This document shows positions 26,196 through 45,302 of a stretch of 64,000 nt of DNA, piece after piece; within the stretch, counting starts at the first letter, position 1, and each line of letters starts with the position of its first letter. This DNA is from Thermosulfurimonas sp. F29 (lineage in GTDB: Bacteria > Desulfobacterota > Thermodesulfobacteria > Thermodesulfobacteriales > Thermodesulfobacteriaceae), in contig NZ_JAIFYA010000004.1 of NCBI RefSeq assembly GCF_019688735.1, positions 62,001-126,000 of the forward strand, written 5' to 3'. A program made the position numbers and the translations under genes. The notes under the pieces are model-generated. The model saw nothing but the letters and a program-made list of their open reading frames with translations. It did no database searches and was not told the origin of the DNA.

Positions 26196-26241
26196 ACGCC
26201 ACCTCCTTCCCTTTTGTTTTTCCGACACCGGGCGCATTTCC

Positions 26242-28878
26242 CTAAAGGGACGAAAACTCCTCGGGAATGCGCCCGTCCTCGTCAAGGGAAAGCGGACGCC
26301 CGCCCAAAGTGAGGAAAAGCAGGGTCCGCCTGACGCCCTTGAGCGATGAGGAATGCACCCGATCGTCCAAAATGGACACCACGCCCCGATCCTCAGCCCT
26401 GCGGCGCAAACGCCCGATGCCCTGCCTCAGGGTGAAAAACATTCGCTCGCCCTGAAGCTGAAAGAGCGCGCCTCTCATCTTTTCGAAAGTCCTTTCAGGA
26501 TCCATACGGTATGCTCCTGTGCGGGCAAGCCAGCTCTCCACCGCCAGGAAGAAGGGGTCGTACGGGAAGAGGTACGGCAACCGGGTCACCACCACGCCCT
26601 GAAGCGCGCGGCCGGGCACATCGAGCCCCTGCCATGCCCAGGATGTCGCGAGCAACAATCCGTTGCCCGCCTCCACGAAGCGGTCCTTCACCTGCCGGTG
26701 AGAAAGCCGCGGGCCGCAGAGATCGAGCTCCCCTTGATCGTTAAATGCGTAAAGCTTGCCGCCGCGGCCCACCGCGAGCACCGTGCGCTCGCCGTCGGGC
26801 GTACGCACACGCAACACTTCGTCGCCCGGTTCCACCGGGGGAAGCAGGCGCAGAAGCTCCCGCAAAACCTTTTCCAGAAAGGCGTAGGAGGTGAAGAGCA
26901 CCAGCACGCCCCCGAGCGGCCTTCCGTCCACCCGCACGCGCAAAAGGCTCTCCACATGACCGGCCACCCGCCGCGCCATCTCCTCCTCACATTGCTCCTT
27001 TTCCTGGGGAGAAAGGCCGGGATCACTTACAAACGACCAGTCAAAGACGCCTTTCTCGGAAACGGGTGGCAGAAACACTCCGACCTTGCGATCGTACGCC
27101 CAGGGCGAGAGAACCGCGATCCCCTGAGCGACGAGGTCGTACTTGGCGCTTCGCAGGAGCCGGGGCAAAGCCATGGTCCGGCTGAGATACCGCGCTTTGT
27201 TCGCGGCCCCGTTGCCGTCGTAAACTACAATGTTCGCTCCCTCTTCGCCTCTCTTTCTGCGGCGAGAACGCCTGCGCCGCGCAAGAACACCCTGCTCATC
27301 GCTTTTTCCGGCCTCTTCGTATTTTTTCACGAATTCGCGGGACGGTTGCTCATAGAGGGTGGCGGAAATGAGCAAGAACTTGGGCTTGACTCCGTGCTGG
27401 ACGGCCCGATCGAGGAAGCGTTGCAAGCGGTTGGCGTAGCGCGACCGACAGATGCTCGGCGCCGCATAAATAGGGGAGAAAGAGGCGTAAGGCGGCGTCT
27501 CGGTATCGCCAGCGAACGCCGACAACGCCAAAAAGTCCTGCGATCCTAAAAGCTTGGCCCGCTCATAAACCTGCCAGAGATTGACGAGCATGTTCCAGCG
27601 TTCCAGCATGTCGTGAAGCAGGTAAAACATCTCCTGCGCATCATCGTCGTCGCCCGGGGAGGTAACGGCCAGCATGCCGGCCACGGAAAGATCCCCTCTG
27701 GATGCGAACAGAAAGTGCAGGTGCGCCATGAGGAGCTTCCAGAGCTCAATGAGCTTCTCCCGGAGCACGCCTTCGAGGTTTCGCAAACGGGGCTCAGCGA
27801 AGGATCCCCGGGCGATGTCCCCTCCCTCGATGAGAACGAGTCTCGTGTCCGGCGTCATGTCGAGGTACTCGCGCCCGAGCCTTTGCACCTCGTCAAGCAT
27901 CTGGCGCAACTGCTCAAAGCGGTCCGAATGAAGAACAGGCGCTATCCCGCGCGCCACCCAGACCGCCCCCTCGGGTTTGCCCTTGCGGAGCACCCGGTCC
28001 ACGACCTTCCGCAACACGCCCAGCAACCGCACCGTCTCCGCTAGGGAAATGCTCCCCCCTTCAAGAGTGAAGAACACCTCCGGGAGGAGATGCGCCTCAT
28101 CCAGGACGATGAACGGATGCGCCGAAGCCAAGAAGGGGTTGCGACTTCTCTCGGGCGCCTGCCCAAGGGAGAAAAGCGAATAATGATTGGTCACCACCAC
28201 TCTGTAGAACTTGTCCCTGAGCTGTCCCCTGAGCGGAGAATCCTGCGCGGCCTCGCGTGCGCGCCGGTAGAACTCGAAGTGTCCGCCGCTTTTATCGCCC
28301 TTCACGGAGGCCGGCGCACACACGGCCGCGGCGGGAATCATACCCCGCACGCGGTCGCGTTCCTCCTCCGGAACGCCGTGCGCTTCGAGCACCGCTTCGA
28401 GAGTGAGATCGAACACCCCCCAGGTTTTGAACTTCACCCTGCGGTCATCGACGGTAACTTCCACCCCCTCCTCGCTGGCTTTGATCCACAGGTCGTAGGG
28501 CGGAAAGAGCTCCCGGGCTTCCTCGCTAAGGGCCTCATAGAACCGCACAAGGCGTATCGGCGAAATGTAGTTGGTCTGCCCGTAAAGGAGTACCGGATCG
28601 CCAAAGACGGCCGCGGCTTTTTTGCGGTCTTCCCCGGTAAGGTGTTCGTGCGGAAATCTGCGCATTTCCTCCACGATCTGAGCCTGAAGCACCCGGGTCG
28701 GTGCGGAAACGATGATGCGGTCCGCCTTCCCCATGCGATAAAGCTCCCATCCCACGGCAAGGTAGGCGCGGGTTTTGCCCGTGCCCGTGCCCGCTTCTAC
28801 CATGGCGAAGTTCCAGTTGGGTTGACGGGTGAGTTCCTCAACAAGCCGCTTCTGCAACGGGTAAAGGTTGACAAACAT
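26242..28878 (-). CDS. csf4: CasDinG (Csf4)-like helicase
   Basis: An 878-residue superfamily 2 helicase with AGGAGGTGGTGC before its ATG. Walker A reads VEAGTGTGKTRAYL near residue 28, the DEAH box FIVLDEAHLLP near 277, motif V LLLATSWAWQGLDVPG near 740, and motif VI RQGIGRLRRRAEDRG near 820. The four Fe-S cysteines of canonical DinG are missing; VCAPASVKGDKSG stands where they would be. CasDinG proteins of type IV-A systems also lack the cluster and are needed for interference with plasmid DNA. Gene neighbours (Csf3-like before, Csf2-like after) agree. Contrast with the Fe-S-bearing DinG at the left edge. Confidence 0.75.
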   Translation of the reverse strand: MFVNLYPLQKRLVEELTRQPNWNFAMVEAGTGTGKTRAYLAVGWELYRMGKADRIIVSAPTRVLQAQIVEEMRRFPHEHLTGEDRKKAAAVFGDPVLLYGQTNYISPIRLVRFYEALSEEARELFPPYDLWIKASEEGVEVTVDDRRVKFKTWGVFDLTLEAVLEAHGVPEEERDRVRGMIPAAAVCAPASVKGDKSGGHFEFYRRAREAAQDSPLRGQLRDKFYRVVVTNHYSLFSLGQAPERSRNPFLASAHPFIVLDEAHLLPEVFFTLEGGSISLAETVRLLGVLRKVVDRVLRKGKPEGAVWVARGIAPVLHSDRFEQLRQMLDEVQRLGREYLDMTPDTRLVLIEGGDIARGSFAEPRLRNLEGVLREKLIELWKLLMAHLHFLFASRGDLSVAGMLAVTSPGDDDDAQEMFYLLHDMLERWNMLVNLWQVYERAKLLGSQDFLALSAFAGDTETPPYASFSPIYAAPSICRSRYANRLQRFLDRAVQHGVKPKFLLISATLYEQPSREFVKKYEEAGKSDEQGVLARRRRSRRRKRGEEGANIVVYDGNGAANKARYLSRTMALPRLLRSAKYDLVAQGIAVLSPWAYDRKVGVFLPPVSEKGVFDWSFVSDPGLSPQEKEQCEEEMARRVAGHVESLLRVRVDGRPLGGVLVLFTSYAFLEKVLRELLRLLPPVEPGDEVLRVRTPDGERTVLAVGRGGKLYAFNDQGELDLCGPRLSHRQVKDRFVEAGNGLLLATSWAWQGLDVPGRALQGVVVTRLPYLFPYDPFFLAVESWLARTGAYRMDPERTFEKMRGALFQLQGERMFFTLRQGIGRLRRRAEDRGVVSILDDRVHSSSLKGVRRTLLFLTLGGRPLSLDEDGRIPEEFSSL

Positions 28879-28896
28879 CGCACCACCTCCTAATGC

Positions 28897-29838
28897 TCAC
28901 TTGCGTTTCGGCGGAATGTCCTTGCCCCTTTCTTCAAGTTGAAGGCACTTCACCGCGGCGTACATGCGGAAGCGCTCGCCCAGCACGGCACCGTTCGGCA
29001 GGTAGCAAAGCTCGCTCCGCGCCCCGTACCAGTACGGGGGAAGCCAGCCCGCCGCATTAACCACGCTACGGGGCTGACCCCATTCCTTTCGCCAGAGACG
29101 CACCGGGTAAGGACGCAACACATAACCGTCTTCCCCCAGCGGCCACCTCGGGGGATGTTCCAGGGGCAGGGCAAGCACATCGAGGAATGCGCCGTAGCCG
29201 AGGCGAGTGAGCTTCCCCAGCGCGCCGACCTCATAGTAGAGAAGGTCCTCAAAGTCCGCGAGCAACTCCTCGTCCGAGCGCCCAAAGCGTCTCTTCAGGC
29301 CCACCACGAACTCGAGTCGCGACACGAACACTCGGTAAGGCACCACAAAGCAAAAATCGCGGTTGACCCCCGACTGCTTGTTCCAGAAGATGTCGGCCCT
29401 CACTCCCCGCGACACCTCTTTAAGAGCCTCCTCCCGCGCCGCGCGGGGCAACACTATGCCCTTCAAAATGACCTCGCTCAGGTTGGGAGAGGTCAGAACC
29501 GCTCCCACCAGCGCCCCGCCCGTCTCCTCCACAACCTCAAGCGCCCGTCCCCTGGAGAGCGCCGGGAGAAAGGCGCCGGTTCCCGTCCCCTCTTTCACCG
29601 CCGCGTCCGCAACGGACGCGGCCACCGGCGAGGAAGCCAGGGGGATGCCGTTGACATCCGTCGCGATGGGGCTCGCCTCAAGCAATTGCTCGAGGTCAAA
29701 CGAACCGGTTTCTTCGTCGTGAAATCGCCGCGCTACCGCCCAGAGCACAGGGGCATCCAGAGTGATAAAAGGATAATTCAGCAGGGGCGGCACCTTGAAC
29801 TCAAGCACCACTCGCGCCCAAAGCACCCCTCTTTTCAT
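28897..29838 (-). CDS. csf3: Csf3-like (Cas5) subunit of a type IV CRISPR-Cas system
   Basis: A 313-residue protein starting at ATG 29838 after GGAGGCGCG; the longer frame to 30183 has no ribosome site. Its start, ARVVLEFKVPPLLNYPFITLDAPVLWAV, recalls the Csf3 opening with 'ITLDALLAYA'. KLTRLGYGAFLDVL is a glycine-bearing RAMP loop. The end, ERFRMYAAVKCLQLEERG, is basic. Cas5 binds the crRNA 5' handle. It is the first gene of the minus-strand operon, 18 bp before DinG, and diverges from the 30041 gene across about 200 bp that must hold the operon promoter. Subunit identity is supported mostly by context. Confidence 0.58.
   Translation of the reverse strand: MKRGVLWARVVLEFKVPPLLNYPFITLDAPVLWAVARRFHDEETGSFDLEQLLEASPIATDVNGIPLASSPVAASVADAAVKEGTGTGAFLPALSRGRALEVVEETGGALVGAVLTSPNLSEVILKGIVLPRAAREEALKEVSRGVRADIFWNKQSGVNRDFCFVVPYRVFVSRLEFVVGLKRRFGRSDEELLADFEDLLYYEVGALGKLTRLGYGAFLDVLALPLEHPPRWPLGEDGYVLRPYPVRLWRKEWGQPRSVVNAAGWLPPYWYGARSELCYLPNGAVLGERFRMYAAVKCLQLEERGKDIPPKRK
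29601..29621. repeat. GCGTCC-type palindrome within csf3
   Basis: CCGCGTCCG-caa-CGGACGCGG, perfect 9-bp arms. It belongs to a set of at least seven GCGTCC/GGACGC palindromes in the window (also 37929, 37983, 51724, 52884, 58913, 59088). Confidence 0.6.
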
Positions 29839-30040
29839 CGCGCCTCCTGAACGCCGTTCTTCCGCAAACCAGTATAGGACAAGGGACCCAAGCGCCCCAA
29901 CCCCGGCAAACCCTTGTCCCCCAAAGGAAAGCGGGGATGTCTTGCACGATCCGGTGGCGGACCTTTTCCGAAAAACAAAAAGGGCCCCCGCCAAGCCTAG
30001 GGCGCTACTTTGGAAGACAAAATACTGAAAGGATAAAAAC

Positions 30041-30901
30041 ATGGGGGGACGCATCATGAAGCAAACGGCCAAATATCGGCGTTGGGCGGAGAAAGCAATG
30101 GGAAACTCCGTATTAACGGACCTAGTGGAACAGGAGCATTTCGCGAAGCTCAAAATGAGGAAGCAACACCGACGCACGGGCATCGGAGCGGCAGGCCCCA
30201 GGGTGGTGGTGGATCTTGAACCGGTTGACTTCCAACCCGTTCCCGAGGAAGAGGAACGGGAACGGAGAGAGGTGCTCGACCTGGTCGCTTTTCCTCTGGC
30301 GAGGGCGACTTTCGAAACCGGCCTCGACGAGCATCCCCTCCGCTTGCGGGGCGGGCGTTTCTATCGGGTGCGAGTTTACTTGGTAAATGAGAAGGGGGAG
30401 CGCCGACCTTTGGTCACCAAAACCATACACATTCCGGGCTCTCCGCAGGAGATCCTTGCGGGGTTCGTAGGGCTCCGCCTTAAGGACGGAAAGCCGGTAC
30501 TCTACCTCGGGTTCGATAAGGGTTCTCCCCTGGCGCGGGCCGTCGCCGTGCAACTCTCTGACAAGGAGCGCGGAGCCATTCTTCGGATCCTACCCGACAT
30601 TCCGCCGCTTGCTCCGAGCGAGGCACGCGCCCTTAAAAACGGCGAGGAGGCTCAGACGGAAACAGCGGAAGCGGGAGCGGAAGTGCGGGAAGCGCACCGC
30701 AATACTCTTGGCGTCTCTGGGGAAGCGATTCCCGGCACAATTGAAGAAACTGCTGCCGGGGAAGAAACGCTTAAAAGCGAGGGGACTGAACCGGAGTGGA
30801 CGCCTAGATCGGACCCCGAAAAGGAAATGCGGACACAACAAAACAGCGCTCCAGAAGAAAATCGCCCCGCAACGCGCTACACGCTCTCTCTAGCGCTTTA
30901 A
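30041..30901 (+). CDS. Hypothetical protein divergent from the csf operon
   Basis: A 286-residue protein beginning at ATG 30041 after GAAAGGATAAAAAC. The N-terminal 50 residues are basic; residues 60-190 look like a folded domain (VDLEPVDFQPVPEEEE, then RFYRVRVYLVNEKGERRPLV and VLYLGFDKGSPLARAV). The last 90 residues are Glu/Thr/Ala-rich and probably disordered. No family recognised and no signal peptide. It faces away from csf3 and converges on the AdoMet-decarboxylase-like gene with a 6-bp gap. Whether it relates to CRISPR function is unknown. Confidence 0.55.
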   Translation: MGGRIMKQTAKYRRWAEKAMGNSVLTDLVEQEHFAKLKMRKQHRRTGIGAAGPRVVVDLEPVDFQPVPEEEERERREVLDLVAFPLARATFETGLDEHPLRLRGGRFYRVRVYLVNEKGERRPLVTKTIHIPGSPQEILAGFVGLRLKDGKPVLYLGFDKGSPLARAVAVQLSDKERGAILRILPDIPPLAPSEARALKNGEEAQTETAEAGAEVREAHRNTLGVSGEAIPGTIEETAAGEETLKSEGTEPEWTPRSDPEKEMRTQQNSAPEENRPATRYTLSLAL

Positions 30902-30907
30902 TCCGCT

Positions 30908-31489
30908 TCAATCCTCCACCCAAGCGCGAGCCTCGAGCTCGTAATGACCCTCTCCGAAAAGGGTGGAGAGCACCCGTTCCATGAGCTCGCGCTCGATCTT
31001 CCGGCAGGAAGACACCTCAAGCCGGAGGAGTCCTCTTTCCGGCCAAGTGCTCGCATTGATGTGACTCTCCATCAGGATGAGCGAGGCCGAGGCCGCAAGG
31101 TATCCCTCCTTCACAGGGAAGGTAACCACGCGCAGGGTTTCGGGAAAAGGGGTAAGCCCCAGCGCCCTGGCTATACGCAAAAGCGCATTCCCCACCTGCC
31201 AAGGGTCCATCTCCGCCGGACGGTAACGCACATTGATGAGAAAGGTCACCCCGCGGTAGGGTACGCTTTCCATGGCGGAACGCTCGTGCAACTCTCTCTC
31301 TCCGAAAAGGTCGACCTCCTCGGCCACGCGCATGGCGACCTCCACGGGATTGCTCCCCGCGCCGGAAGTCTCCCCGCCGGCATTGTCCGCATAGGTATCC
31401 TCAAAGAGATCCTCAAACTCGCCACGACGACCCCTCGAGGCATTCCCCGGTTCTCGCCGGTCCCGACGAGCCGCCGTTTCTTTCGCCAT
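30908..31489 (-). CDS. S-adenosylmethionine decarboxylase-like protein (SpeD family)
   Basis: A 193-residue protein. MESHINASTWPERGLLRLEV matches the SpeD self-processing signature 'ESHi..HTwPE', where cleavage before the Ser makes the pyruvoyl cofactor; the catalytic Cys position is kept in EVSSCRK. SpeD decarboxylates AdoMet to supply aminopropyl groups. The first 60 residues are an Arg/Gly/Glu-rich extension not seen in standard SpeD (about 120-130 residues). It ends a run of minus-strand genes that starts with prepilins and includes a spermidine-synthase-like enzyme. Finding SpeD on a mobile element inside a pilus operon is unusual. The His of the 'SIHTWPE' region is replaced by Ser, which might alter activity. 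Confidence 0.75.
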   Translation of the reverse strand: MAKETAARRDRREPGNASRGRRGEFEDLFEDTYADNAGGETSGAGSNPVEVAMRVAEEVDLFGERELHERSAMESVPYRGVTFLINVRYRPAEMDPWQVGNALLRIARALGLTPFPETLRVVTFPVKEGYLAASASLILMESHINASTWPERGLLRLEVSSCRKIERELMERVLSTLFGEGHYELEARAWVED

Positions 31490-31524
31490 CTCGCACCCTC
31501 CCGGTCAAAAAGGTTTGGGCCTTG

Positions 31525-32343
31525 TTAATCAAAGTAAAGCGCGGTTCCCCTTTCCCTCGAAAGAGAAATCGTGTCCAAGCGGAAGAGCCCCGAGTCGAGC
31601 ACGCGTCTTACCACCCCCAGCGTGACGGCGTTCAACCCGAGACCGACAGCCTTTTCCCAAGCCTCCTCACCGGAAAGATGCACATCCACCTGCTCGCGCT
31701 CACCGCGCTCGCCACGAGCCCGCACGAACCGCTTCTCCTCCTTGCGGTACACCTTGCGCTCCACAAGCGTCCCGTTCCAAGAAAAGGTCCAGCCGCAAAG
31801 CACATAGGCGGACCAGTCCCGATCATCCTCCCGCCCGCTTCCGCCTTCCCCGCGAAGAAGCACATAAACCCTCTTTTCACCGGCCATCACATCCACACCA
31901 AGCCCAAGCCCCCTCACCGCGGCGATGAGAACCTCATCCTCCGCCCGGCGCTCCTTCCCGGAAGACGGGACACCGCCTGAGATCTGGCGCAAGGCCCGTA
32001 TTGCGTCCGCGGCGAGCAGAGCCATCACTTCCTCCTCATCCATCCCCAGAAAAGCCTCAAGCATTTCTCCGAAAAACTCCACATCTTCGCGCGAACTTTT
32101 GGTGAAAAAGCCCGCATAGAAGCGTGAAGGGTCGGTGAAGCCCCCGGGCGTTTCGAGCACCGAGAAGGTGGCCTGCGAGAAGTTGCTTATCACCGAAAAC
32201 GGCTCGTCCGAGCCGAACTCCCGCACCATGCGCGGCAGGCTGTAGTCCACCCATTCCTCAAGAACCCCGTCCACCATGACCGGGTATATCTCCGCATTCC
32301 AGAACCGTAACTGATCCACCAAGAACTCGTCTCCCCGAGCCAC
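31525..32343 (-). CDS. Hypothetical protein between SpeE-like and SpeD-like genes
   Basis: A 272-residue protein with GGAGGTGAGAGAGTGGCTC before the start. No family recognised. Soluble, mixed alpha/beta by appearance: EPFSVISNFSQATFSVLETPG, DPSRFYAGFFTKSSREDVEFF and, later, WSAYVLCGWTFSWNGTLVERKVYRKEE. Aromatic-rich centre and charged surface residues. It sits 35 bp before the SpeD-like gene and 50 bp after the SpeE-like gene, so it is co-transcribed with both and may act on the same amine or be the acceptor. That is inference from position. Confidence 0.55.
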   Translation of the reverse strand: MARGDEFLVDQLRFWNAEIYPVMVDGVLEEWVDYSLPRMVREFGSDEPFSVISNFSQATFSVLETPGGFTDPSRFYAGFFTKSSREDVEFFGEMLEAFLGMDEEEVMALLAADAIRALRQISGGVPSSGKERRAEDEVLIAAVRGLGLGVDVMAGEKRVYVLLRGEGGSGREDDRDWSAYVLCGWTFSWNGTLVERKVYRKEEKRFVRARGERGEREQVDVHLSGEEAWEKAVGLGLNAVTLGVVRRVLDSGLFRLDTISLSRERGTALYFD

Positions 32344-32393
32344 TCTCTCACCTCCCCGGTTTTAACTTCGTTCGCCGCCAACCGCGCTTTTCA

Positions 32394-33449
32394 CTATCCA
32401 TTACCGGCCGTCCCGGAGGCGAACGGCCGCTCCTGCAAAGCTACGGAGCACCCAACCCCGAACCTGCCGGGCTCGCTCACGGCCATTCTGCGCACCCTAA
32501 GGTCGTATCCCACGACGCCCCAGATGGGGATGCGCGCAAGCTCCTCATCAGGCAAAGTGGGAAGTTCGTCGGCGAGAAAGGCGGTAAGCGCCGCAAAACG
32601 CGCGCCCTCCCTTACGAAGGTCCCGGTCGGTTCGGCCGCAAAAACAAACCGTTCGCCGGTCTCCGATGCGTAAATGATTCCCACATCGCCCATGCTCGGC
32701 ATGGGAAGCCTCAAGGGTAAAAGAAGGCCGAACCCCGCCTCCTGCAGGGTGAGCATGACCTTCCGGAAGACATTGGGTGAGTGCCAGACCGAAGTGGCCT
32801 GCACGCTCACTATGCCACCCGGCGCCAGACGCGCCCGCACCATCCGGTAGTGCTCGACGGTGAAGAGCCGGTTCACCTGATCGGAGGGTTCCAGGCTCGG
32901 GTCCGGGTAGTCGAGCACAATGAGATCGAATCTCTCTCCCTTGGAAGCGAGGTAAGCGTGGGCATCGCCCACCTCAACCCTCACTAGGGGATGTCGCAGG
33001 CTTTCTCCGTTCAGGGCACGCATAACCGGGTGCGTGCTTGCGAAAAAGAGCATATACTCGGATATGTCCACCAAGGTGATCCCCGCAAGCGAAATCATTC
33101 CCCTGCGCTCGAGCTCGAGCAGGGTTCGAACACCGAGGCCGTCTCCGCCCCCGCAAACGAGCACCTGAAGCGGACGGTCCTTCGGCTTTGCCCGAACGGG
33201 GCCCTCACCCTGAACCGGCTCCAGCAGAGCGGGTAAACCGAAAAGCGCTTCATGGTAGCGACGCTCATCCAGCGTGGAAAACTGCAACCCGCCGTTTATG
33301 GTCAGGTAGAGATTCCCGTCCGCTCCTCTAAAGAACACATACTCCCCAAGGGGGTCCCGCCAGTAAGCTAGCACCTCCTCAGGGGCATTCCCCCTGAAAG
33401 AAGCGACCGTTCCGCTGAGAATTTCTCTTACCTCGGGAATGAGGGGCAT
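32394..33449 (-). CDS. Spermidine synthase-like aminopropyltransferase
   Basis: A 351-residue enzyme. N-terminus NLYLTINGGLQFSTLDERRY matches the substrate-lid region 'L.iDG..Qf...DE..YHE'. The AdoMet-type fold has VLVCGGGDGLGVRTLLEL, then ITLVDISEYM and FDLIVLDYPDPS. The tail FTVEHYRMVRARLAPGGI and LPMPSMGDVGIIYAS fits the catalytic domain of the transmembrane spermidine synthase group (recalled; that group ends in 'vPsfGdWGF') more than cytosolic SpeE, but no membrane helices are present here. The usual 'DSTDP' is DYPDP. It begins 17 bp after the last prepilin gene, so it is in the pilin operon. Substrate unknown. Confidence 0.72.
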   Translation of the reverse strand: MPLIPEVREILSGTVASFRGNAPEEVLAYWRDPLGEYVFFRGADGNLYLTINGGLQFSTLDERRYHEALFGLPALLEPVQGEGPVRAKPKDRPLQVLVCGGGDGLGVRTLLELERRGMISLAGITLVDISEYMLFFASTHPVMRALNGESLRHPLVRVEVGDAHAYLASKGERFDLIVLDYPDPSLEPSDQVNRLFTVEHYRMVRARLAPGGIVSVQATSVWHSPNVFRKVMLTLQEAGFGLLLPLRLPMPSMGDVGIIYASETGERFVFAAEPTGTFVREGARFAALTAFLADELPTLPDEELARIPIWGVVGYDLRVRRMAVSEPGRFGVGCSVALQERPFASGTAGNG

Positions 33450-33466
33450 GCCTTTCTCCTCCGCGC

Positions 33467-34585
33467 TTACTCATAACTCACATCCCAATAGATAGCCCAG
33501 CGAGCATTCAGCGCATCGTACACCCCTATGCGGCTCTTCGGTAACACCAAGCCGGCCACGGGATAGTTTGGTTGCGGACGAGGTGGGGGGCACCCTACAG
33601 GATTTCCGTTCGCGTCAGCCAAGGGCACAAAGGTGATGGCGTTGCCGAACCCGTCCACCCGGTAGGCGGTTCCAAGTCCCAGGGCACTAAGCACCCTTTG
33701 CATCTCGATCGCTTGGTCGACCGTACAGTAGTTCGGGGAAACCTCCCAAGCGGCGAGGGAAGTGTGGTTCAGGCACCCGCACCCGGATGCAGTATCCTCA
33801 ACGCCGGAACAGAGCCGGGTCGGATTGAGGGAGACCACCTTCCACACCCAGGGCACGACCGCATCATCCCACGACCCGAGCCCTCCGGGAGGGTCGTTTG
33901 CGGAAGTGGCCGCGGTGCCGCACACATTGGCGAGCTCCGCATTGCGCCGCAGGCGCACGAAGGACTGGAGAGCTCTTCCCCATTCGGTGAGCTTTGACCG
34001 CGAAAGCGCTAGGAAGTGACGCACCACATCGTCATAGGTGAAAATCACATGAAACCCACCCGAGGCCCACACCTCAAGGGTGGGTATCCGTCCGTAGTAG
34101 GGAGCGAGGTAGGGTGTGCCTCGCTGATGGCCGTTCGTGACCGCATAGGTCATCAGGCGTCCGAACCCGTCGTAACAGCGCACCTGGAAGTCAGGAGGGG
34201 AACCCCGCACCTCGCATCCCACGGCGGCAAGAGCATTTAAAGCGTCCGCATCGAAGGTGTGGAAGACCAGCACCGTACCCGAGGATCCGGTCACCTCTGG
34301 AGTAAGGGCGAGCACCGAACAGGTGGGGTCTCCCGCCTCGCCCCATCCGTAGCAATTGTCTTCGGCGTACTTCTGGTTCGCGAACATCACCGAGCGGACC
34401 GCCTCGCCGATGGCCTTGATGCGCTCCTGCGTAATTCGGAACCGGCGGTTCCGCTCCTGCGTGTCCACGGCGAGCTTGACGATCGGCACAAGCGCGGCAA
34501 GAAAAAACATTGCGAGCATGATCTCGTAGACCGAAAACCCCAGTCTGCGTTGCTTCTCGTCCTCCGCGCACCGTACCTTCATCAC
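33467..34585 (-). CDS. Type IV prepilin-like protein, large
   Basis: A 372-residue protein. Residues 1-15 are a charged leader, followed by RRLGFSVYEIMLAMFFLAALVPIV: cleavage after Gly would expose Phe with Glu at +5, the pattern for prepilin peptidase substrates. The remaining 330 residues are a large periplasmic domain with Cys pairs (DNCYGWGEAGDPTCSV; ASGCGCLNHTS). The length suits a minor pilin or a PilV-like adhesin of conjugative thin pili. It overlaps the upstream prepilin gene by 4 bp and is followed after 17 bp by the spermidine-synthase-like gene. Confidence 0.7.
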   Translation of the reverse strand: MMKVRCAEDEKQRRLGFSVYEIMLAMFFLAALVPIVKLAVDTQERNRRFRITQERIKAIGEAVRSVMFANQKYAEDNCYGWGEAGDPTCSVLALTPEVTGSSGTVLVFHTFDADALNALAAVGCEVRGSPPDFQVRCYDGFGRLMTYAVTNGHQRGTPYLAPYYGRIPTLEVWASGGFHVIFTYDDVVRHFLALSRSKLTEWGRALQSFVRLRRNAELANVCGTAATSANDPPGGLGSWDDAVVPWVWKVVSLNPTRLCSGVEDTASGCGCLNHTSLAAWEVSPNYCTVDQAIEMQRVLSALGLGTAYRVDGFGNAITFVPLADANGNPVGCPPPRPQPNYPVAGLVLPKSRIGVYDALNARWAIYWDVSYE

Positions 34586-35145
34586 CTGGTCACCACCCCG
34601 TCGACCGCGCAGGGGTCGGCGCCAGTATTGCCGGGTCGCACATAACGCAATCCGGTCCAGTCCGCCTGCGCCACCTGCGTGCGGATCCAGTACCGTCCCA
34701 CCAAAGGAAGCTGACTCACATTAGTGAGCGCAGACGGAGCAAGCGCCCCTCCCTGCGTGAACACCTCGGAAAGGGAACCGGAAGCGTTGGGCAGAAACGC
34801 CCAGTAAAGAGGACTCGAAAGCGAGAAACCCCGCGCCGAAGAACAAAAGGCATCAGTCGGGTACGGGCAGAAGGTGCGTCCGGTGGCATAGCATTCCTGA
34901 CACTTGATCACCAACGCCCGTAACATCTCGCAGACCCTGATCAGAGTGCGTTCCGCCTCCTCCACTACGATGGGACGGCTCTCCGCGGGCATCGGAATCG
35001 GCGTTTCCCTGCGAAAGGCCTCCGCCGCAAGATGCGCCTTGAGCGGGTACCACCGCTGGGACACCGCGAACACGGTGAGGAGCATGGCGCCCACGAGGAG
35101 AAGCAAGACGGTTACAACGAACCCCTTCTCGCGGCGTCTGCGCAT
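34582..35145 (-). CDS. Prepilin-like minor pilin
   Basis: About 187 residues from ATG 35145 (frame open to 35175). The leader MRRRREKG is followed by FVVTVLLLLVGAMLLTVFAV, a hydrophobic prepilin helix lacking Glu at +5, as in PilX/GspK-type minor pilins. The rest has CQECYATGRTFCPYPTDAFC, a Cys-rich loop, and an aromatic C-terminus. It lies 15 bp after the 35191 prepilin gene when the longer start is used and overlaps the next one. Probably exported and processed by the same peptidase. Confidence 0.6.
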   Translation of the reverse strand: MRRRREKGFVVTVLLLLVGAMLLTVFAVSQRWYPLKAHLAAEAFRRETPIPMPAESRPIVVEEAERTLIRVCEMLRALVIKCQECYATGRTFCPYPTDAFCSSARGFSLSSPLYWAFLPNASGSLSEVFTQGGALAPSALTNVSQLPLVGRYWIRTQVAQADWTGLRYVRPGNTGADPCAVDGVVTR

Positions 35146-35190
35146 TTCGTGTTGCCACTCCCTCTCACCGCCCATAACCGCATGCGGTGT

Positions 35191-35655
35191 TTACCGGCAA
35201 GGACGGTCGTTTAACTGGCAAACAAGGCTCGTTCCGCTCTGGAAGACCGCGTCGCAGGGACGCTGAAACTCCGCGGCAAGCGCCGTGCGAGCCTTGGCGC
35301 TGGTGATGGGCGGTGTGGTAATCACCATGGTGTTCGCCGCACACTGGTATTGCCACCCTTTGTTGATCACATCCTGCGGCACATAAGCCTCATTCACATT
35401 CCATCCCCAACCGTTGCCCGCAGGGTACGCATAGTTGGACTGGTAGTAGTTCTCGAGACCCGCCATAATGGCGGAGAACTCCGAGCTGATGGTGCTTTTG
35501 ATCTTCCACGCCTGCACCCGGGGCCACACCACATTGAAAATAATCGCCACAAACGAAGCCACGAGAAAGATCCACACCAGAATGTCGAACACGCTAAACC
35601 CGCAACAACGCTTTCGTCCACGCTTTCGTCCGTCCCTGCACTTTGCGGTCAGCAT
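35191..35655 (-). CDS. Type IV major pilin candidate (PilS-like)
   Basis: A 154-residue protein with GGGGAGGTGTGACCT before its ATG. A basic leader ends RCCG, and FSVFDILVWIFLVASFVAIIFN follows, the N-terminal helix of a type IV pilin with Asp in place of Glu at +5. The globular part has aromatic repeats (YYQSNYAYPAGNGWGWNVNEAY) and C-terminal Cys pairs that would form the D-loop. Size and position at the head of the pilin cluster suggest the major subunit of a conjugative thin pilus. The Glu5-to-Asp change is unusual. Confidence 0.65.
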   Translation of the reverse strand: MLTAKCRDGRKRGRKRCCGFSVFDILVWIFLVASFVAIIFNVVWPRVQAWKIKSTISSEFSAIMAGLENYYQSNYAYPAGNGWGWNVNEAYVPQDVINKGWQYQCAANTMVITTPPITSAKARTALAAEFQRPCDAVFQSGTSLVCQLNDRPCR

Positions 35656-35757: not shown

Positions 35758-36504
35758 TCAGGCCGGCAAAGGTGTTGCGGAAACGGAAACCTTCCTGCGT
35801 TTAGATGCACGGGTGCGGCGATGTGCGGTTTTGCGCAGGCAGACATCCGCGACCACGCTGTCCGCAAAGCGTTCGGCGATAAGCGAAGTAATGCGCTCGG
35901 CTTCCTCGGGAGACGCGTCTCTGGCGGAGGCAATGGTCCGCAGGAGCCAGTCCCGGGAGATGTACTTGCTTAGAAAAGGTATCCGATCGCAGAGATCAGC
36001 AATGAGGTAGTCGCTCGCAAGACGCGAAAATTCGTCCGAAAAGTCAAGGCGGTCATTCGAAAGCCGCCCCCACTCCCAAAGATACACCACTTTTCGACCC
36101 TGCCCGTTGCGAAACCAGAGAATCTCCTCCACCATGGGGAGCAACGCCTCGCATAGACGCCGCTCATAAAGAGAACGGGTTTTCTCGGTAAGGGTGCCTT
36201 TCATCACCTTTTGCTGAAGCCCCCAGGCCGCGCTCCGGAAAGCCCCTTTCCCGGCGTCGAAAGTGCGATAAGCATCCCGTACCGCCTCGAGGTAAACGCG
36301 GAAAAAGAGCCTTTGCTCGGGTCTCGGGGGTCCCTCCGCATGAGCTCGACGCTCCTCCCAGGAAAGTTTTTCGACCTGTTCCTCCGAATACCGATCCGTG
36401 AGTCGATAAAGCCCGAGAATGCGACCGAAGAAACGAAGCAATTGTTCGGTGCGATTGGGACCGGACACCTGCAAAAGAACGGCGGGGTGCGCGCTGGTGT
36501 GCAT
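35758..36504 (-). CDS. Sigma-factor-like protein, degenerate or regulatory
   Basis: A 248-residue protein, start after AGGGAGGGAGTCT. The stretch FFRVYLEAVRDAYRTFDAGKGAFRSAAWGLQQKV closely parallels the region 2 stretch of the 3562 sigma factor (EAALHADPGKGTFTTIAWHYLRQKF). No clear region 4 helix-turn-helix is seen; instead the C-terminus is basic (RRTRASKRRKVSV). It may be a region-2-only regulator, such as an anti- or co-sigma factor, or a decayed sigma factor. It sits 102 bp upstream of the pilin genes on the same strand and diverges from the metallopeptidase gene, so control of pilus genes is an obvious hypothesis. Confidence 0.5.
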   Translation of the reverse strand: MHTSAHPAVLLQVSGPNRTEQLLRFFGRILGLYRLTDRYSEEQVEKLSWEERRAHAEGPPRPEQRLFFRVYLEAVRDAYRTFDAGKGAFRSAAWGLQQKVMKGTLTEKTRSLYERRLCEALLPMVEEILWFRNGQGRKVVYLWEWGRLSNDRLDFSDEFSRLASDYLIADLCDRIPFLSKYISRDWLLRTIASARDASPEEAERITSLIAERFADSVVADVCLRKTAHRRTRASKRRKVSVSATPLPA

Positions 36505-36601: not shown

Positions 36602-37318
36602 ATGCCCGAACCCGAGGGTTACCTCGAGCTGGGTACGGTTTACGGGATTGCGGTCGCCGGAGAGGTGTGGGCCCTCATGCGCGGGGCGGCTTCCTTCGAA
36701 GCAATTACGCGCTCCATGGTCTGGAAGTACCTCATGCTCTTCCGAGAAATGATGCGCCACCACCCTTACCCCGTGTACCGAATAGTCATACGCACGGATG
36801 CTTCCCCCCGGCTCGAAGTGCGAGGTGACGGTCAAGCGGTGGTGTACCTGCCGGAAAAACCAAGCATGCATCACTCCGGCTCGACGGCGGGAACGATAGA
36901 GAGAGTGCGCCCCCTCTTTCACGAACTGGGGCACCTCACGCAATACATCCTCCTCGCCCCTCCTGACGAAAAGAGCGCTTGGCTTTTTGAGGAAAGTTCT
37001 CTCAGGGCCTCCTTCAAGGTCCTTGCCGGCATTCATCGGGAGCGTCACCCGTCGCATCGGTTGCAAACGCCTCCCACCGAACACCGGGCACACCCAAAAC
37101 CGTCAGAACCGCATTCCGATGCGCACACCGACGGCTTCCTCACGACTCTTCGGTTGCCAGATCTCCACGGGCATGCCGCCGACGAAAACGGTTTCTCCGT
37201 CCGAAGCGCTCCACTCGCGCGCCCGCCAGAAAACCGACGCCTCGAAAAACCCCACCTTCCAGAAAAGCTCCGCACCCCAGCACCGGGGACCATCCGGTTC
37301 GAGGTCGGCGTTCCCTGA
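36602..37318 (+). CDS. HExxH-motif protein, probable metallopeptidase, overlapping a convergent gene
   Basis: A 238-residue protein starting at ATG 36602 with GGGAGGTCGCGT upstream. Residues 103-109 read FHELGHL, a zinc-peptidase HExxH motif, placed in a folded-looking region (VYRIVIRTDASPRLEVRGDG before it). The last 72 codons lie antisense to the outer-membrane gene at 37103 (216-bp tail-to-tail overlap) and read as Pro/His/Arg-rich, non-globular sequence, so the original stop was probably lost or the gene truncated. No signal peptide. A third Glu ligand is not obvious. It may process pilins or toxin proteins; unproven. Confidence 0.55.
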   Translation: MPEPEGYLELGTVYGIAVAGEVWALMRGAASFEAITRSMVWKYLMLFREMMRHHPYPVYRIVIRTDASPRLEVRGDGQAVVYLPEKPSMHHSGSTAGTIERVRPLFHELGHLTQYILLAPPDEKSAWLFEESSLRASFKVLAGIHRERHPSHRLQTPPTEHRAHPKPSEPHSDAHTDGFLTTLRLPDLHGHAADENGFSVRSAPLARPPENRRLEKPHLPEKLRTPAPGTIRFEVGVP

Positions 37319-37912
37319 ACCGGGCGCGACCTCTGAAAGCCTCGCTTCGAGGTCGGTATCCCCTTCCCCGTAAAAGACCTCGAAACCCAGCCGCCCGAGC
37401 GAAAAAGCACGCCCCACCACGCGGAAACCTGCGAGCAAGGTGCGCGTGATCCACACTTCCTCATATCCCCCCGGTTCGTCCGAAAGATCGCGGCGCCAAC
37501 GCTCGAACTCCGCTCCGATGAAAGCCGCAAGTCGCATTGCTCCGAGATTCACGCCACGCTCGAGGGAAACTCGGATGCGCCAGCCGCTGTGATCTCCCGT
37601 GCCGGAAACAGGTTGTCCGCTCCAGTATTGTCCGTCGTAGTCGCTTTGTCCGGCATAAGCTTCCCCTCTGAGGTTCAGTCCCAACCCGAAAGGCAACCCT
37701 GTCACCAAATCGGCATAAACGCCTCCGCGCAGGCTCCGTTCGTCCACATCGCCACCTCCCTCCTCCCACCGGACATAGCTCCCGTAAACACCCACGCCGA
37801 ACTCGGAAGCATACGCCGTCTGACTCCAAGCGAATGCGAGGGAGAGAAGAGCAAAAAGGATCGAGCAGGCGATCAAATGATGGAAACCCGAGACCGGCTT
37901 CTCGCTTCGCAT
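37103..37912 (-). CDS. Outer-membrane beta-barrel protein
   Basis: A 269-residue protein. A signal peptide (residues 10-35: LIACSILFALLSLAFAWSQT, then AYA) precedes a mature domain with alternating aromatic and polar strands (VGVYGSYVRWEE, GLGLNLRGEAYAG, WRIRVSLERGV) and a C-terminal Phe in VGVRIGMRF, the classical barrel-insertion signal. About eight strands fit the length. It indicates a diderm host. It may be a pore, adhesin or pilus-linked barrel; no specific family seen. Its 3' end is overlapped by the metallopeptidase-like gene. Two GCGTCC palindromes lie on either side of its start region and downstream gap. Confidence 0.68.
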   Translation of the reverse strand: MRSEKPVSGFHHLIACSILFALLSLAFAWSQTAYASEFGVGVYGSYVRWEEGGGDVDERSLRGGVYADLVTGLPFGLGLNLRGEAYAGQSDYDGQYWSGQPVSGTGDHSGWRIRVSLERGVNLGAMRLAAFIGAEFERWRRDLSDEPGGYEEVWITRTLLAGFRVVGRAFSLGRLGFEVFYGEGDTDLEARLSEVAPGSGNADLEPDGPRCWGAELFWKVGFFEASVFWRAREWSASDGETVFVGGMPVEIWQPKSREEAVGVRIGMRF

Positions 37913-39017: not shown

Positions 39018-40631
39018 TTAAAGGAGGACCGCAAAGGCACTCCCGAGGTCTATCTCCCCGGCCTCAAGTTTTTTCAAGGCCACATCCACAAAAGAACGGG
39101 CGCAGGCCGCTCTGCGCAAAAGGTGTTCCTCGAACTTGAGGGCGCTTGTGGTCTCGAGCACCAGCTCGCGCTCCTCCTTCTGAAATTCGAGGTACTCATA
39201 GATCACCGTGCGCCCGGCGAACCCGGCGCTCATCACCCGCCCCGTTTCGGGATGAACAATTCGACACTCCGCGCACCCCTCCCGGTTGGGGAAAGCGAGG
39301 GCCCTGCCTTCGAGGTCGCGCAGGCGCTCCCTGTCCATGAAACGCAGGTGGTCTACAAAAACGAGGTCCTCCGCGGTCACCTTGCGCTCCACGGCGCAGT
39401 TCGGACAAACTCGCTTTAAAAGCCGCTGATTCAGAACAAGAATGATGCCGTTCGCTAGGTCCTCGGGAGCGAGCCGATACTGGCGGATGAGAAGGTTCGG
39501 AACCGTCACCACCCGAGAGGCATGAAGCGTGGTGAGCACAAGGTGTCCGGTCTCAACCGCGTAAAGCATGGCTTCGGTGAGCTCGGGATGCTTTCGCCAC
39601 TCACCGACGAAGATCACATCCGGATCCTGCCGCATGAACTCCCGCACATAGTCGAGGAAGTCCACCCGAACGAACTCGTTTTCCTTGCGGAACTCGAACA
39701 CCTGGTGCTGAACGGCGTTCTCCACCTGGTACTCCACCGGGTCCTCCACGGTGAGCACCTTGCGCGTGGAGGGAACAAGAGCGAGCAAAGTGTTCAATGT
39801 GCGACTTTTACCAGAACCCGTGGCCCCGGATACGATCACGAATCCCTCGCGCCGTCCGATCGCCCTGAGGAGCACCTCCACATCTTCCGGCATGAAGCCC
39901 AAAGCCTCGATCGACTCGGGCCCTTTCACGCGCGAGGTCTCCCGGTAGAGGATGCGGATGACCAGGTTCTGGTATCCGTCCACCAGAGATGGAGTGAAGG
40001 CAAGGCGCAGGTCGAGCCCGAGATCGGAAAGCACAATGCGAGCGTCCTGCGTGAGACGCCACTCCTCCACATTCAGGTTGGGAGTGTCCTTTTGAGCCAT
40101 GTTCTTTACGACTTGTTGCAGGACACGCCCCTCGGCAAGGCTCAGGGTTTCCGCCTTGACCATATCGCCGAGAATCCGGTAGCGAAGCTCCACTCCGTAA
40201 TCGCGCACTTCGAAGTGGATATCCGTGGCCCCCATGGCGAGGGCCGCCTTCACAATGCGAATGAAACGACCGACATACCCTTCCTTCTCTTCGCCGCCTC
40301 CCGCGAAAAAGTAGTACGGCACAATGTAGATCTCCGCTCCCGGGAAAACGCGTCTGGCGTCATCGGCCATTTCCGGGTCGAAGATCCCCACCGCTCCGTC
40401 CGAAAACCGCACATACCAGTACGACCGTTCGGCCACGATACCGCTTTTGCGCAAAGGAATCCCGCTTCGCCGACTGATGTACTCGGCCACCTCGGCGTAA
40501 TCCGTCACCTTCTCCACCCGCACCAGCACCTCGAGCGGGGGCGCACCGATGCGAGCGGCTTCCTCCACCACGCGGTCGTAGTCGAGCCCTTTTTCCTCGG
40601 AAAACTCCCTCAGGAGCATCGCAAGGCTCAT
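39018..40631 (-). CDS. pilB: PilB/GspE-family pilus assembly ATPase
   Basis: A 537-residue ATPase from ATG 40631 (AAAGGAGGGTGCGC ahead). Walker A VSGATGSGKSRTLN, Asp box TVEDPVEYQVENAVQHQV, Walker B DPDVIFVGEWRKHPE and His box TTLHASRVVTVP are all present. Two CxxC pairs (CPNC near residue 430 and CAEC near 470) form the zinc site typical of GspE/PilB. The N-terminal domain resembles the GspE/MshE-N fold. It powers pilin polymerisation. One difference: the Walker B 'GE.RD.ET' is GEWRKHPE. Clear orthologous context with PilC behind and the PilP-like gene ahead. Confidence 0.88.
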   Translation of the reverse strand: MSLAMLLREFSEEKGLDYDRVVEEAARIGAPPLEVLVRVEKVTDYAEVAEYISRRSGIPLRKSGIVAERSYWYVRFSDGAVGIFDPEMADDARRVFPGAEIYIVPYYFFAGGGEEKEGYVGRFIRIVKAALAMGATDIHFEVRDYGVELRYRILGDMVKAETLSLAEGRVLQQVVKNMAQKDTPNLNVEEWRLTQDARIVLSDLGLDLRLAFTPSLVDGYQNLVIRILYRETSRVKGPESIEALGFMPEDVEVLLRAIGRREGFVIVSGATGSGKSRTLNTLLALVPSTRKVLTVEDPVEYQVENAVQHQVFEFRKENEFVRVDFLDYVREFMRQDPDVIFVGEWRKHPELTEAMLYAVETGHLVLTTLHASRVVTVPNLLIRQYRLAPEDLANGIILVLNQRLLKRVCPNCAVERKVTAEDLVFVDHLRFMDRERLRDLEGRALAFPNREGCAECRIVHPETGRVMSAGFAGRTVIYEYLEFQKEERELVLETTSALKFEEHLLRRAACARSFVDVALKKLEAGEIDLGSAFAVLL

Positions 40632-40677
40632 GCGCACCCTCCTTTGTCCTTTGCTCCCGACGCCCCGTCTTCCTTCG

Positions 40678-41847
40678 TCACTCCTGAACGACGGACCCCG
40701 CACCCGCAACCGCGGCTGTCGCGGCCACGGTATTTTCCCTGGGAGCCGCTTCAGGCAACGCCAGCACGGCTTTGATCCGCTCCTCTTTGCCGTTCGGAAA
40801 CCGCACCGTAAACCCACCGCGGTCGACCGCAACGACGCGTCCTTCGCCGTAAGGCGCCCCTTCAAAGATGAACGATCCGTCGTCGAGCACCAATGTCACC
40901 TGACCGGCGTCTTCCAGAATGCCCCGTATCACCACCGCCGAAGGCACGCGGTAATGGTGGTTCTCCTCCTTGGTCTTCTTCTGTTTTTTCCCCTTCTCTT
41001 TGTCGCCCACATTGACACCAATGTGGACACGCCCCTCCGCCTCAGAAGAGACCCTTCCCCGCACTTCCTCACGCAACCTGCGCCGCTCCTCGGCAAGCTT
41101 CTCCGCCACTATGCGGTCCACAGCCCGCTCAAGCACCCTGCGCAAGTCCTCGGAGAGAAAGGGATTGGCCCGAAGCAACCTTTCGGCCTCGCTGACTTCC
41201 GGTTGTCTTGCCGATGCGAATGCCGATGCGGATGCGGAAGCGCTAGAGGAAGAAGCACGCCTTCCCCCTTTTTCCCGAAAGGCAACCCCCGCATGCGAAA
41301 GCGGAACCTCTCCTCCCCTTCCCCGCGGAACGATCCCCGAGGAAGCTGATGGACGAAGGGATGTCTTAGTCCCGTTCCCCGTCGTCGCGGAAACGCTTTG
41401 CGCGGACCGATGCGTTATAAGAGACGATGTTTTGGTTTCGGAAGGGAAGCGGACTTTTGCGGAAGAACCAGAAGGCGCCGGAAGAGGCGTATGCTCCCGG
41501 GCAAATTGAGAAGTCGCAGGAGCATGCGTCAGGGTGCGCATTGCCTGCGGGACATTGCTCTTTTCGGAGCCACCCGCTAAAAAGGCGTAAAACGCCCCCC
41601 CAACAACGGAAAGCCCCATGATCCCGGCGAAAAGACCGAGCACCAGCTTTTTTCCACCCGGGAAGGCATCGAGCACTCCAAGAAGGCCCCCGAAACCGGC
41701 TTTCTTCGCGGGAGCGGAATGAGTCTCTTCGACTTCGCCTTCTTCATCGTAAAGTCCCTCATCGGCCTCTTCCGTCTCCTCTTCCTCCTCCGCAACCTCT
41801 CTGAGGAGCTGTTCCTGTTCCACATCCATGAGTTTTTTTTCGCTCAT
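40678..41847 (-). CDS. Single-pass membrane protein with C-terminal PilP-like domain
   Basis: About 389 residues from ATG 41847. The N-terminus is very acidic and cytoplasmic (REVAEEEEETEEADEGLYDEE); one helix follows (KKLVLGLFAGIMGLSVVGGAFYAFL, about residues 75-100); then a Ser/Thr/Ala-rich linker, a coiled coil (VLERAVDRIVAEKLAEERRRLREEV) and a small beta domain at the end (PSAVVIRGILEDAGQVTLVL ... FTVRFPNGKEE). The last resembles the PilP domain of conjugative thin pilus systems or the VirB10/TraB-like secretin link. It heads the pil operon, 46 bp before pilB. Specific function is inferred from order. Confidence 0.5.
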   Translation of the reverse strand: MSEKKLMDVEQEQLLREVAEEEEETEEADEGLYDEEGEVEETHSAPAKKAGFGGLLGVLDAFPGGKKLVLGLFAGIMGLSVVGGAFYAFLAGGSEKSNVPQAMRTLTHAPATSQFAREHTPLPAPSGSSAKVRFPSETKTSSLITHRSAQSVSATTGNGTKTSLRPSASSGIVPRGRGGEVPLSHAGVAFREKGGRRASSSSASASASAFASARQPEVSEAERLLRANPFLSEDLRRVLERAVDRIVAEKLAEERRRLREEVRGRVSSEAEGRVHIGVNVGDKEKGKKQKKTKEENHHYRVPSAVVIRGILEDAGQVTLVLDDGSFIFEGAPYGEGRVVAVDRGGFTVRFPNGKEERIKAVLALPEAAPRENTVAATAAVAGAGSVVQE

Positions 41848-43471: not shown

Positions 43472-44140
43472 CTACCCCCCACTACCCACCTGCCTCAGCT
43501 CGACAATGCGCAATCCCCACGGGTTCTCCTCGGTGCGCTCGGTTTTGCGTATGCGGAAGACGAAAGCGCGTACGCTACGGGCCACGCCGACCGGACTGCG
43601 CTCGCTCCACGCAAGCCGTGCCAAAATGAGAAAGTCCCCGGTTTTCTGATCCTTGGTCACCTCAACGGGCGGCACCACTTCAGCCGCAATCACCACACGC
43701 CGCCGCACCATCTCCCGGGCGAGACCCGCCTGAAGTCCCCGCAGAAAAACATTCAGGTACTTCCGATCGAAAAACGGCGCAATCCGCATCGCATACTGTC
43801 GCCAACCCTCCTGCGTCAGAAACTCGTCATAGGAAACCGAAAAAGCCCTCTCCACCGCCTCGCGCACGAAAGCCTTAATCTCCGTCTGATACACCCGATC
43901 GCGATAGCTCGCCACCGGAATGGGGAACCCCGACGGTGAAAGCGCGAAAAGTTGCGGCTTGCGTTCAAGCGTCCAGAGACGCACCAGCCCGACCGCGCCG
44001 ACCATCCCGAGCACCAGAAAGGCCACCCCCACCACCGCCAGCGCCAAGTAAGCACGCCTGAGCGACCGCTCGAGCGAACGCACCACATCGGGTATCACCG
44101 CTTCGGGCCCCCTCAGGTCCACATTCTTCCGCTTAGCCAT
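43472..44140 (-). CDS. DotI/IcmL- or VirB8-like T4SS inner-membrane protein
   Basis: About 222 residues from ATG 44140. A short cytoplasmic basic N-terminus, one membrane helix (LALAVVGVAFLVLGMVGAVGLV, residues 30-52), and a periplasmic domain: LFALSPSGFPIPVASY, then AVERAFSVSYDEFLTQEGW and AMRIAPFFDRKYLNVFLRG. The 'alSPsG.piPv' entry and 'FS.sYDefltqegW' are characteristic of DotI/IcmL (TraM of IncI plasmids), whose fold is VirB8/NTF2-like. It overlaps the DotG/VirB10-like gene by 8 bp. These proteins build the T4SS inner-membrane platform. Confidence 0.65.
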   Translation of the reverse strand: MAKRKNVDLRGPEAVIPDVVRSLERSLRRAYLALAVVGVAFLVLGMVGAVGLVRLWTLERKPQLFALSPSGFPIPVASYRDRVYQTEIKAFVREAVERAFSVSYDEFLTQEGWRQYAMRIAPFFDRKYLNVFLRGLQAGLAREMVRRRVVIAAEVVPPVEVTKDQKTGDFLILARLAWSERSPVGVARSVRAFVFRIRKTERTEENPWGLRIVELRQVGSGG

Positions 44141-45302
44141 TGCCGTTCTCCTCAAGCATGATCCTCACCGGCAACCCCTCATCCACTTCCACCACATAAG
44201 CGGGCTTCTTGCTCAGCTCCCTCTCAGGCAACCCCGAAACCACATCGAAGAAAGTCGCCCCCCCTTCTTTCAAGGCCTCCTTCAGACGATCCTCGGACTT
44301 CTGCTTAACCGTAACCGAACCCCACTCATAGCCGGTCACCGTTTCGGTGTCCTCCCGGCTCGCCCGAAGCCCGGCGGAGAATGCTCTCTCCAAAGCCCTC
44401 ACCAGAAAAAGCGCCCGGTCGTACCGTTTCACCCGCGAGGCGATCCCCTCGACGCCGTCCACTCCGTAGACCCTTCCTCGTACGGGAATAACTTTGCCCG
44501 AAGGCGTGATCAACCGTGTGAGGCGCACAATGGCCCTCATCCGTGCGGGATTGACCGTGGCTTCACCGACCACCACGCTTCCCACGGGTACGCCGGCACA
44601 GTTGTTCGGCTCGATCACTCTGAAACGAAGAAGGCTCTTCTGTCCCTGTATGACCAGAGCATTTTGCATTACCTCGCCCCCGAAAAGACAGTACGGTCTG
44701 AACCGCATTCGCCTGCCGCCGGAGACGATACGCCCGGAACCCCCGCTCGCAATGCGCCTCACGGGAACACCGCTGGAAGCGCTCTTTTCCTTTGTGTTTT
44801 CCTTTGGAAACGGCATTTGCACGGCAAACCCGCCGAAAAGAACCGGCTTGCGCCATTCGACGCGTTGTCCCCGCTCCCAGTACATCCGCCACCAAAACGC
44901 CCGCTCCGCCTGCGCCAACCGCTCCGCGGGACTCATTATCGTCTCTTCTTTCGCCGCTCCCTCCCGGATCGGTATGAGCAATGCCTGCGTCGCTTTCTCC
45001 GCTTTCTTAGTGCCCTCCCCTCCCCCGCGCTTGGCGGTCTCCTTCTCGCCCGCTTGAAGCAGGTTGAGCAACACTCCTTCCTTCTTGAGGAGCTCCTTCT
45101 CCCTCCTTTGTGCCTCGGCAAGCGCAGGACTTTCCGTGTGCGGATTGGGCGCACCCCCCGGCACATCCACCCGCCGGGGCATCGCCACACGCGCTTCACG
45201 CCCCCCATGCAGAAGAAGCGCGAGTACCGCAAGCATTACGCACACCACCAAGCCAATCACCCCGAAAAGCGCAATCTCTCTTTTAAAACGGCCGAGACTC
45301 AT
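44133..45302 (-). CDS. VirB10/DotG-like T4SS core protein
   Basis: A 389-residue protein. One membrane helix near the N-terminus (IALFGVIGLVVCVMLAVLALLL), a Lys/Glu linker (residues 60-180), then the VirB10-type C-terminal domain: LFGGEVMQNALVIQ, VPVGSVVVGEATVNPARM, TPSGKVIPVRGRVYGVDGVEGI. The last matches the conserved 'ipV.g.v.d.dG..Gi' strand pair. VirB10/DotG spans the periplasm and links the inner-membrane ATPases to the outer ring. It overlaps the DotI-like gene by 8 bp and the small 45299 gene by 4 bp. Assignment to the DotG (I-type) side is suggested by the DotI neighbour. Confidence 0.68.
   Translation of the reverse strand: MSLGRFKREIALFGVIGLVVCVMLAVLALLLHGGREARVAMPRRVDVPGGAPNPHTESPALAEAQRREKELLKKEGVLLNLLQAGEKETAKRGGGEGTKKAEKATQALLIPIREGAAKEETIMSPAERLAQAERAFWWRMYWERGQRVEWRKPVLFGGFAVQMPFPKENTKEKSASSGVPVRRIASGGSGRIVSGGRRMRFRPYCLFGGEVMQNALVIQGQKSLLRFRVIEPNNCAGVPVGSVVVGEATVNPARMRAIVRLTRLITPSGKVIPVRGRVYGVDGVEGIASRVKRYDRALFLVRALERAFSAGLRASREDTETVTGYEWGSVTVKQKSEDRLKEALKEGGATFFDVVSGLPERELSKKPAYVVEVDEGLPVRIMLEENGNG

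Follow-up and report, generated by a model that had tools for sequence, protein, structure and literature searches.

A SpeD-like and SpeE-like gene pair at the end of a pilus operon on a plasmid-like contig, a candidate aminopropyl-transfer module of mobile elements

Spermidine-synthase-like proteins fused to a membrane part form a widespread family. A fused enzyme of this kind reportedly gave no complementation of a speE deletion. It has been proposed that the membrane-fused family transfers to a substrate distinct from putrescine (PMC11237479, which cites Li et al. 2019). For SpeD, residues S63, H68 and C83 have been named as essential for processing (PMC10407285), and a Thermodesulfobacterium with two SpeE-type enzymes has been shown to produce spermidine and thermospermine (PMC11107197).

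Here, we analysed a 64,000-nucleotide stretch of contig C4 from Thermosulfurimonas sp. F29 (the window, meaning this whole stretch), in which a SpeD-like and a SpeE-like gene follow prepilin-like genes on the minus strand. The genes of the region are:

30908..31489, minus strand, SpeD-like protein with a class 1b AdoMetDC fold, 193 aa (Pfam, alignment, predicted structure)
31525..32343, minus strand, orphan gene orf272, 272 aa (open reading frame without database relatives)
32394..33449, minus strand, SpeE-like aminopropyltransferase without transmembrane part, 351 aa (Pfam, NCBIfam, tree, structure)
33467..34585, minus strand, prepilin-like protein, G/FSVYEIML, E at +5 (sequence motif)
34582..35175, minus strand, prepilin-like protein, G/FVVTVLLLL, no E at +5 (sequence motif)
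35191..35655, minus strand, prepilin-like protein, G/FSVFDILV, D at +5 (motif and weak GspG match, E 0.018)
35758..36504, minus strand, operon gene without assigned function
37103..37912, minus strand, exported protein with N-terminal signal-like segment
38031..39008, minus strand, GspF/PilC-like inner membrane protein
39018..40865, minus strand, GspE/PilB-like assembly ATPase
43472..44155, minus strand, IcmL/DotI-like conjugation protein
44133..45302, minus strand, TrbI/VirB10-like conjugation protein

The order claimed in a sequence-only reading of the window, three prepilin-like genes followed after 17 bp by a SpeE-like gene, an unknown gene and a SpeD-like gene, is borne out, all six reading frames lying on the minus strand at the coordinates listed. 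From the first pilin gene to the SpeD-like gene the intergenic distances are 15, −4, 17, 50 and 35 bp, GGAGG-type ribosome sites lie upstream of the SpeE-like, orf272 and SpeD-like genes, GC3 is uniform across the block (0.70–0.74), and no promoter-like site was found on the minus strand in the block region. The prepilin calls are based on the N-terminal motifs (GFSVFDIL, GFVVTVLL and GFSVYEIM), the weak GspG match and the adjoining GspE and GspF homologues; the real start of the GspE/PilB-like ATPase is probably downstream of the listed TTG. Searches with orf272 gave zero matches in Pfam, PADLOC, PHROGs, plasmids and viral contigs. A plus-strand reading frame with a metalloprotease-like HELGH motif (window 36602–37318) sits in a 598-bp gap of the minus-strand operon. 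Because the genome holds just three SpeD-family and three SpeE-family genes, it is by our own estimate very unlikely that one of each came to lie two genes apart by chance.

Contig C4 (145,269 bases) is plasmid-like and encodes ParB proteins, a primase, a topoisomerase, TrbI/VirB10, IcmL/DotI, a lytic transglycosylase and a VirD4-sized protein; the contig looks like a conjugative plasmid. A further ATPase, which we take from its sequence to be VirB4-like, has a paralogue in a related conjugation element of the same genome (G000:C2, about 494000–560000; VirD4-like copy 56%, VirB4-like 31–34% identical). This C2 element further holds a primase, a topoisomerase, IcmL, TrbI and its own pilus ATPases and pilin, and has neither a SpeD-like nor a SpeE-like gene. 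With the ATPase, VirB4 and TrbI as queries, the search for orthologous pilus/conjugation operons returned remote matches only, save for the C2 element. The runs of about 45 T at both ends of C4 are probably assembly break points. Before the window, C4 carries a second type IV pilus cluster (C4:9573–24082) with a GspE-like ATPase, a secretin-like protein, a major pilin and a PilT-like ATPase, and within the window the minus strand of 24795–30183 encodes the type IV CRISPR effectors Csf2/Cas7, Csf4/DinG and Csf3/Cas5. In the operon itself the assembly ATPase, platform protein, prepilins, IcmL/DotI and TrbI are all encoded on one strand; the TrbI and GspF matches lie below Pfam cut-offs, with position supporting both. 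The pilin operon comes directly after the genes for IcmL/DotI and TrbI and so probably builds a mating pilus.

The SpeE-like protein passes the Pfam cut-off for PF01564 (70 bits). Its best NCBIfam model is PRK03612 (165 bits, under the cut-off of 472), and TIGR00417, the equivalog of ordinary SpeE, is not reached (65.3 bits, cut-off 249.55). The AlphaFold model matches polyamine aminopropyltransferases (1uir, E 6e-20), the catalytic domain begins at about residue 25, and the N-terminal transmembrane half is absent. The residues predicted to bind the donor and to act in catalysis are kept as a full set (Q56, D61, E62, Y65, H66, E67, GGGDG100–104, D128, D162, D180, D183 and Q217). We discarded a methyltransferase identity, since the DxPD, GGGDG and YHE motifs, like the N-terminal sheet domain, are aminopropyltransferase features. 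A defence role was set aside as well: the PADLOC mad2 match (E 4e-14) spans the synthase-like domain only, and no other MADS gene was present among the scanned proteins.

On the predicted acceptor side, the C-terminal segment is changed. The fused-family motif PYHxxVPSFG[DE]WGF (F and W in 83 of 83 proteins, Y in 78, H in 77) reads PLRLPMPSMGDVGI in the window protein; from general knowledge of spermidine synthases, this segment presumably lies near the amine pocket. The tree nests the protein within the membrane-fused clade with starred support; constraining it together with ordinary SpeE is rejected (p-AU 0.017), and constraining it with the phage group is not (p-AU 0.46). The earlier assignment to the transmembrane-spermidine-synthase clade, without membrane helices, agrees with both the nesting and the missing hydrophobic half. 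Both window proteins sit on long branches (3.77 and 3.53) that make their tree positions uncertain, and since fast evolution of this kind may mislead trees, shared residues are the stronger argument. Y181, H200 and M250 are common to the window and phage SpeE-like proteins (M250 being scorable in six of the eight phage proteins), and each occurs in none of the 83 fused proteins; in ordinary SpeE, Y181 and M250 are absent and H200 is found in two of 23. F196 and I129 are likewise common to window and phage proteins, and less informative because ordinary SpeE has them too. The enzyme's descent from membrane-tethered spermidine-synthase-like proteins, together with its altered C-terminal acceptor-side segment, makes an acceptor other than plain putrescine probable.

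The proteins matched at the best 80 of at least 590 genome loci are all membrane fusions with N-terminal hydrophobic segments, mostly of 495–646 aa, a few being cut by contig ends. A SpeD motif gene lies in the fetched flank of 28 of these 80 loci, 24 times on the same strand and within about 4 kb of the synthase. Membrane-less relatives (284–302 aa) occur on viral contigs within virion modules, and a genome of the host's family (L005, G029) has one among the same phage genes; PHROGs offers no spermidine-synthase annotation for these phage genes (L045–L053, L005). The membrane-less SpeE-like gene is accompanied by SpeD on phage contigs L049 and L050, and in six of the eight phages with the SpeE-like gene (L045–L048, L052 and L005) no SpeD was detected. 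The L049/L050 SpeD is the nearest to that of the window (phmmer 5e-16; tree grouping 100/98). In L049, three tiny Lys-rich proteins are followed by SpeD. Single-protein scans gave no matches for the SpeD-like protein or orf272 in plasmids and viral contigs, nor for the SpeE-like protein in viral contigs and annotated phages, and no closer relative was found.

SpeD accompanies SpeE elsewhere too, and two kinds of mobile element carry the pair; the linkage to pilins does not recur. A pilus-type ATPase adjoins the synthase at none of the best 80 of at least 590 loci, as checked by sequence motifs rather than profiles (one pair lies 7–8 kb off, in L083), and there is none in the phages with the nearest pair. 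The sequence-only reading had proposed that the pair aminopropylates something made in the operon, and a pilin or another operon product, such as that of the gene at 31525, might be modified on a protein amine before pilus assembly. The tight 17-bp coupling to the pilin genes at uniform GC3 and the non-polyamine acceptor suggested for the fused family (PMC11237479) fit this idea, but conservation of the block next to pilins was not seen in those 80 best relatives, in the nearest-pair phages or in the C2 element, which has pilus genes of its own and no such pair. We also know of no protein aminopropyltransferase of SpeE-like fold, which counts against it. The sequence-only reading did not mention the change of His68 to Ser in SpeD, the conjugation setting or the further SpeD and SpeE genes of the genome. 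Of its proposal, the pair itself and its origin in the fused group hold up; modification of pilin is possible but unsupported, and we consider it highly improbable.

The SpeD-like protein scores 31 bits against PF02675 (cut-off 25), and its AlphaFold model matches the AdoMetDC structures 2iii and 1vr7 (Foldseek, E about 1e-6), with a core at about residues 80–190 and a low-confidence N-terminal extension (residues 1–79). Aligned to T. maritima SpeD, Ser134 corresponds to Ser55, Glu141 to Glu62, Ser142 to Ser63, Ser147 to His68 and Cys162 to Cys83. The pyruvoyl serine (Ser142) and catalytic cysteine (Cys162) are retained, and the position of His68 is taken by Ser147. Histidine stands there in 35 of 37 compared SpeD proteins, the exceptions being the window protein and L101; the latter (L101:11781–12143), encoded by a Myxococcota MAG close to a membrane-fused synthase, has serine as well. 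Searching 395 genomes of the phylum gave no ortholog of the SpeD-like protein. A motif scan of genomes for SpeD proteins whose residue 68 is Ser or Thr gave two stretches, none confirmed; its alignment included invented variant rows, solely to define the degenerate motif, and it was too narrow, missing L101. A looser pattern found in the 395 genomes the window protein and one chance match only. Because an essential histidine is replaced, the decarboxylase activity of the SpeD-like protein is uncertain, and the protein may be dead.

The chromosome of the same genome separately encodes a SpeD and two SpeE of the ordinary kind. A SpeD paralogue lies directly upstream of speE (G000:C3:381320–381748, L141; also L142–L170) and is present in 36 of 43 genomes searched, mostly of the host's order. 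In 30 aligned loci its Cys83 is Ala throughout and Ser63 is gone in most, with HTWPE kept; it is apparently a conserved, dead AdoMetDC and could have a role like that of the trypanosome prozyme. The window's SpeD-like protein might also be a pseudoenzyme, one that does not process itself and, in the manner of the trypanosomatid prozyme, modulates either the host SpeD or its SpeE partner; the SpeE-like enzyme would then use decarboxylated AdoMet of the host. The change to Ser at a position reported as essential (PMC10407285) would agree with this, as would the precedent of a dead paralogue beside speE in the host order. The window protein, however, keeps Ser142, Cys162, Ser134 and TWPE, whereas the dead paralogue has lost Cys83 and mostly Ser63, and L101, with Ser at 68, keeps Ser63 and Cys83, hinting that the change is tolerated. 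Overall, we regard a pseudoenzyme as a rather unlikely explanation.

The same chromosomal genes bear on a further alternative, that the pair supplies ordinary polyamines, raising the level of spermidine, of thermospermine or of some longer polyamine to serve DNA or translation while the plasmid transfers or a virus grows. Spermidine-making SpeD and SpeE pairs of phages and viruses are documented (PMC9992855), and the three Lys-rich proteins ahead of the L049 SpeD could indicate a DNA-condensation setting. Against this, the chromosome is already equipped with SpeD and two SpeE, the window's SpeE-like protein is not an ordinary SpeE and has a changed acceptor-side segment, and its SpeD-like partner lacks His68; we give polyamine supply a limited chance. 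The related suggestion of long polyamines for DNA at high temperature is weakened by the same chromosomal genes and by the spermidine and thermospermine of Thermodesulfobacterium with two such enzymes (PMC11107197).

The explanation that we favour, with moderate confidence, is an accessory aminopropyl-transfer module of a mobile element, changed on its acceptor side and placed at the tail end of a conjugative pilus operon. With a similar pair in phages and a membrane-bound enzyme family as nearest kin, the two genes look more like cargo of mobile elements than like a component of the pilus; the C2 conjugation element has neither gene, as cargo would predict. In this module the SpeD-like protein would cleave itself at Glu141–Ser142 to yield the pyruvoyl group and make decarboxylated AdoMet, a step rendered doubtful by the loss of His68; if it is inactive, chromosomal SpeD would provide the donor. 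Judging from its catalytic residues and fold, the SpeE-like enzyme would bind decarboxylated AdoMet and hand its aminopropyl group on to an accepting amine. What we infer here is the activity, the acceptor and the gain for the element; gene order, homology, residue sets, missing membrane helices and kinship with the phage pair are observed. More tentatively, phages and the conjugative plasmid might share an aminopropylation system, a fused synthase minus its membrane half, whose target would be a non-polyamine acceptor (a protein, a peptide or another amine) that the element makes or exploits. Being soluble and paired with a SpeD of its own, the mobile-element version should lend itself better to expression and assay than a membrane protein, and phage virion modules and a conjugation operon as locations leave fewer candidate acceptors.

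Among known systems, the PRK03612-type fused proteins found with SpeD in DUF350/DUF4178/PspA operons (PMC11237479) have a catalytic domain about 28–42% identical to that of the window, the same residue set, often SpeD as a neighbour and a presumed non-putrescine acceptor. The window protein differs in being without the transmembrane half, in its altered acceptor-side motif and in its place in a conjugation/pilus operon; no Pfam match to PspA, DUF350 or DUF4178 was present among the scanned window neighbours. With class 1b AdoMetDC (T. maritima SpeD, 1vr7/1tlu) the SpeD-like protein shares the fold, Ser55, Glu62, Ser63, TWPE and Cys83, but it has Ser for His68 and an additional 79-residue N-terminus. 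Virus pairs of SpeD and SpeE (PMC9992855) likewise couple donor and transferase on a mobile element, although there the synthases are of the ordinary kind and have been shown to produce spermidine, unlike the window's. The phage pair of L049/L050 is only about 30% identical, its genes lie 6 kb apart amid virion genes with no orphan gene between them, and its SpeD retains His68; yet its synthase is membrane-less like that of the window, has Y181, H200 and M250 in common with it, and is accompanied by the nearest SpeD.
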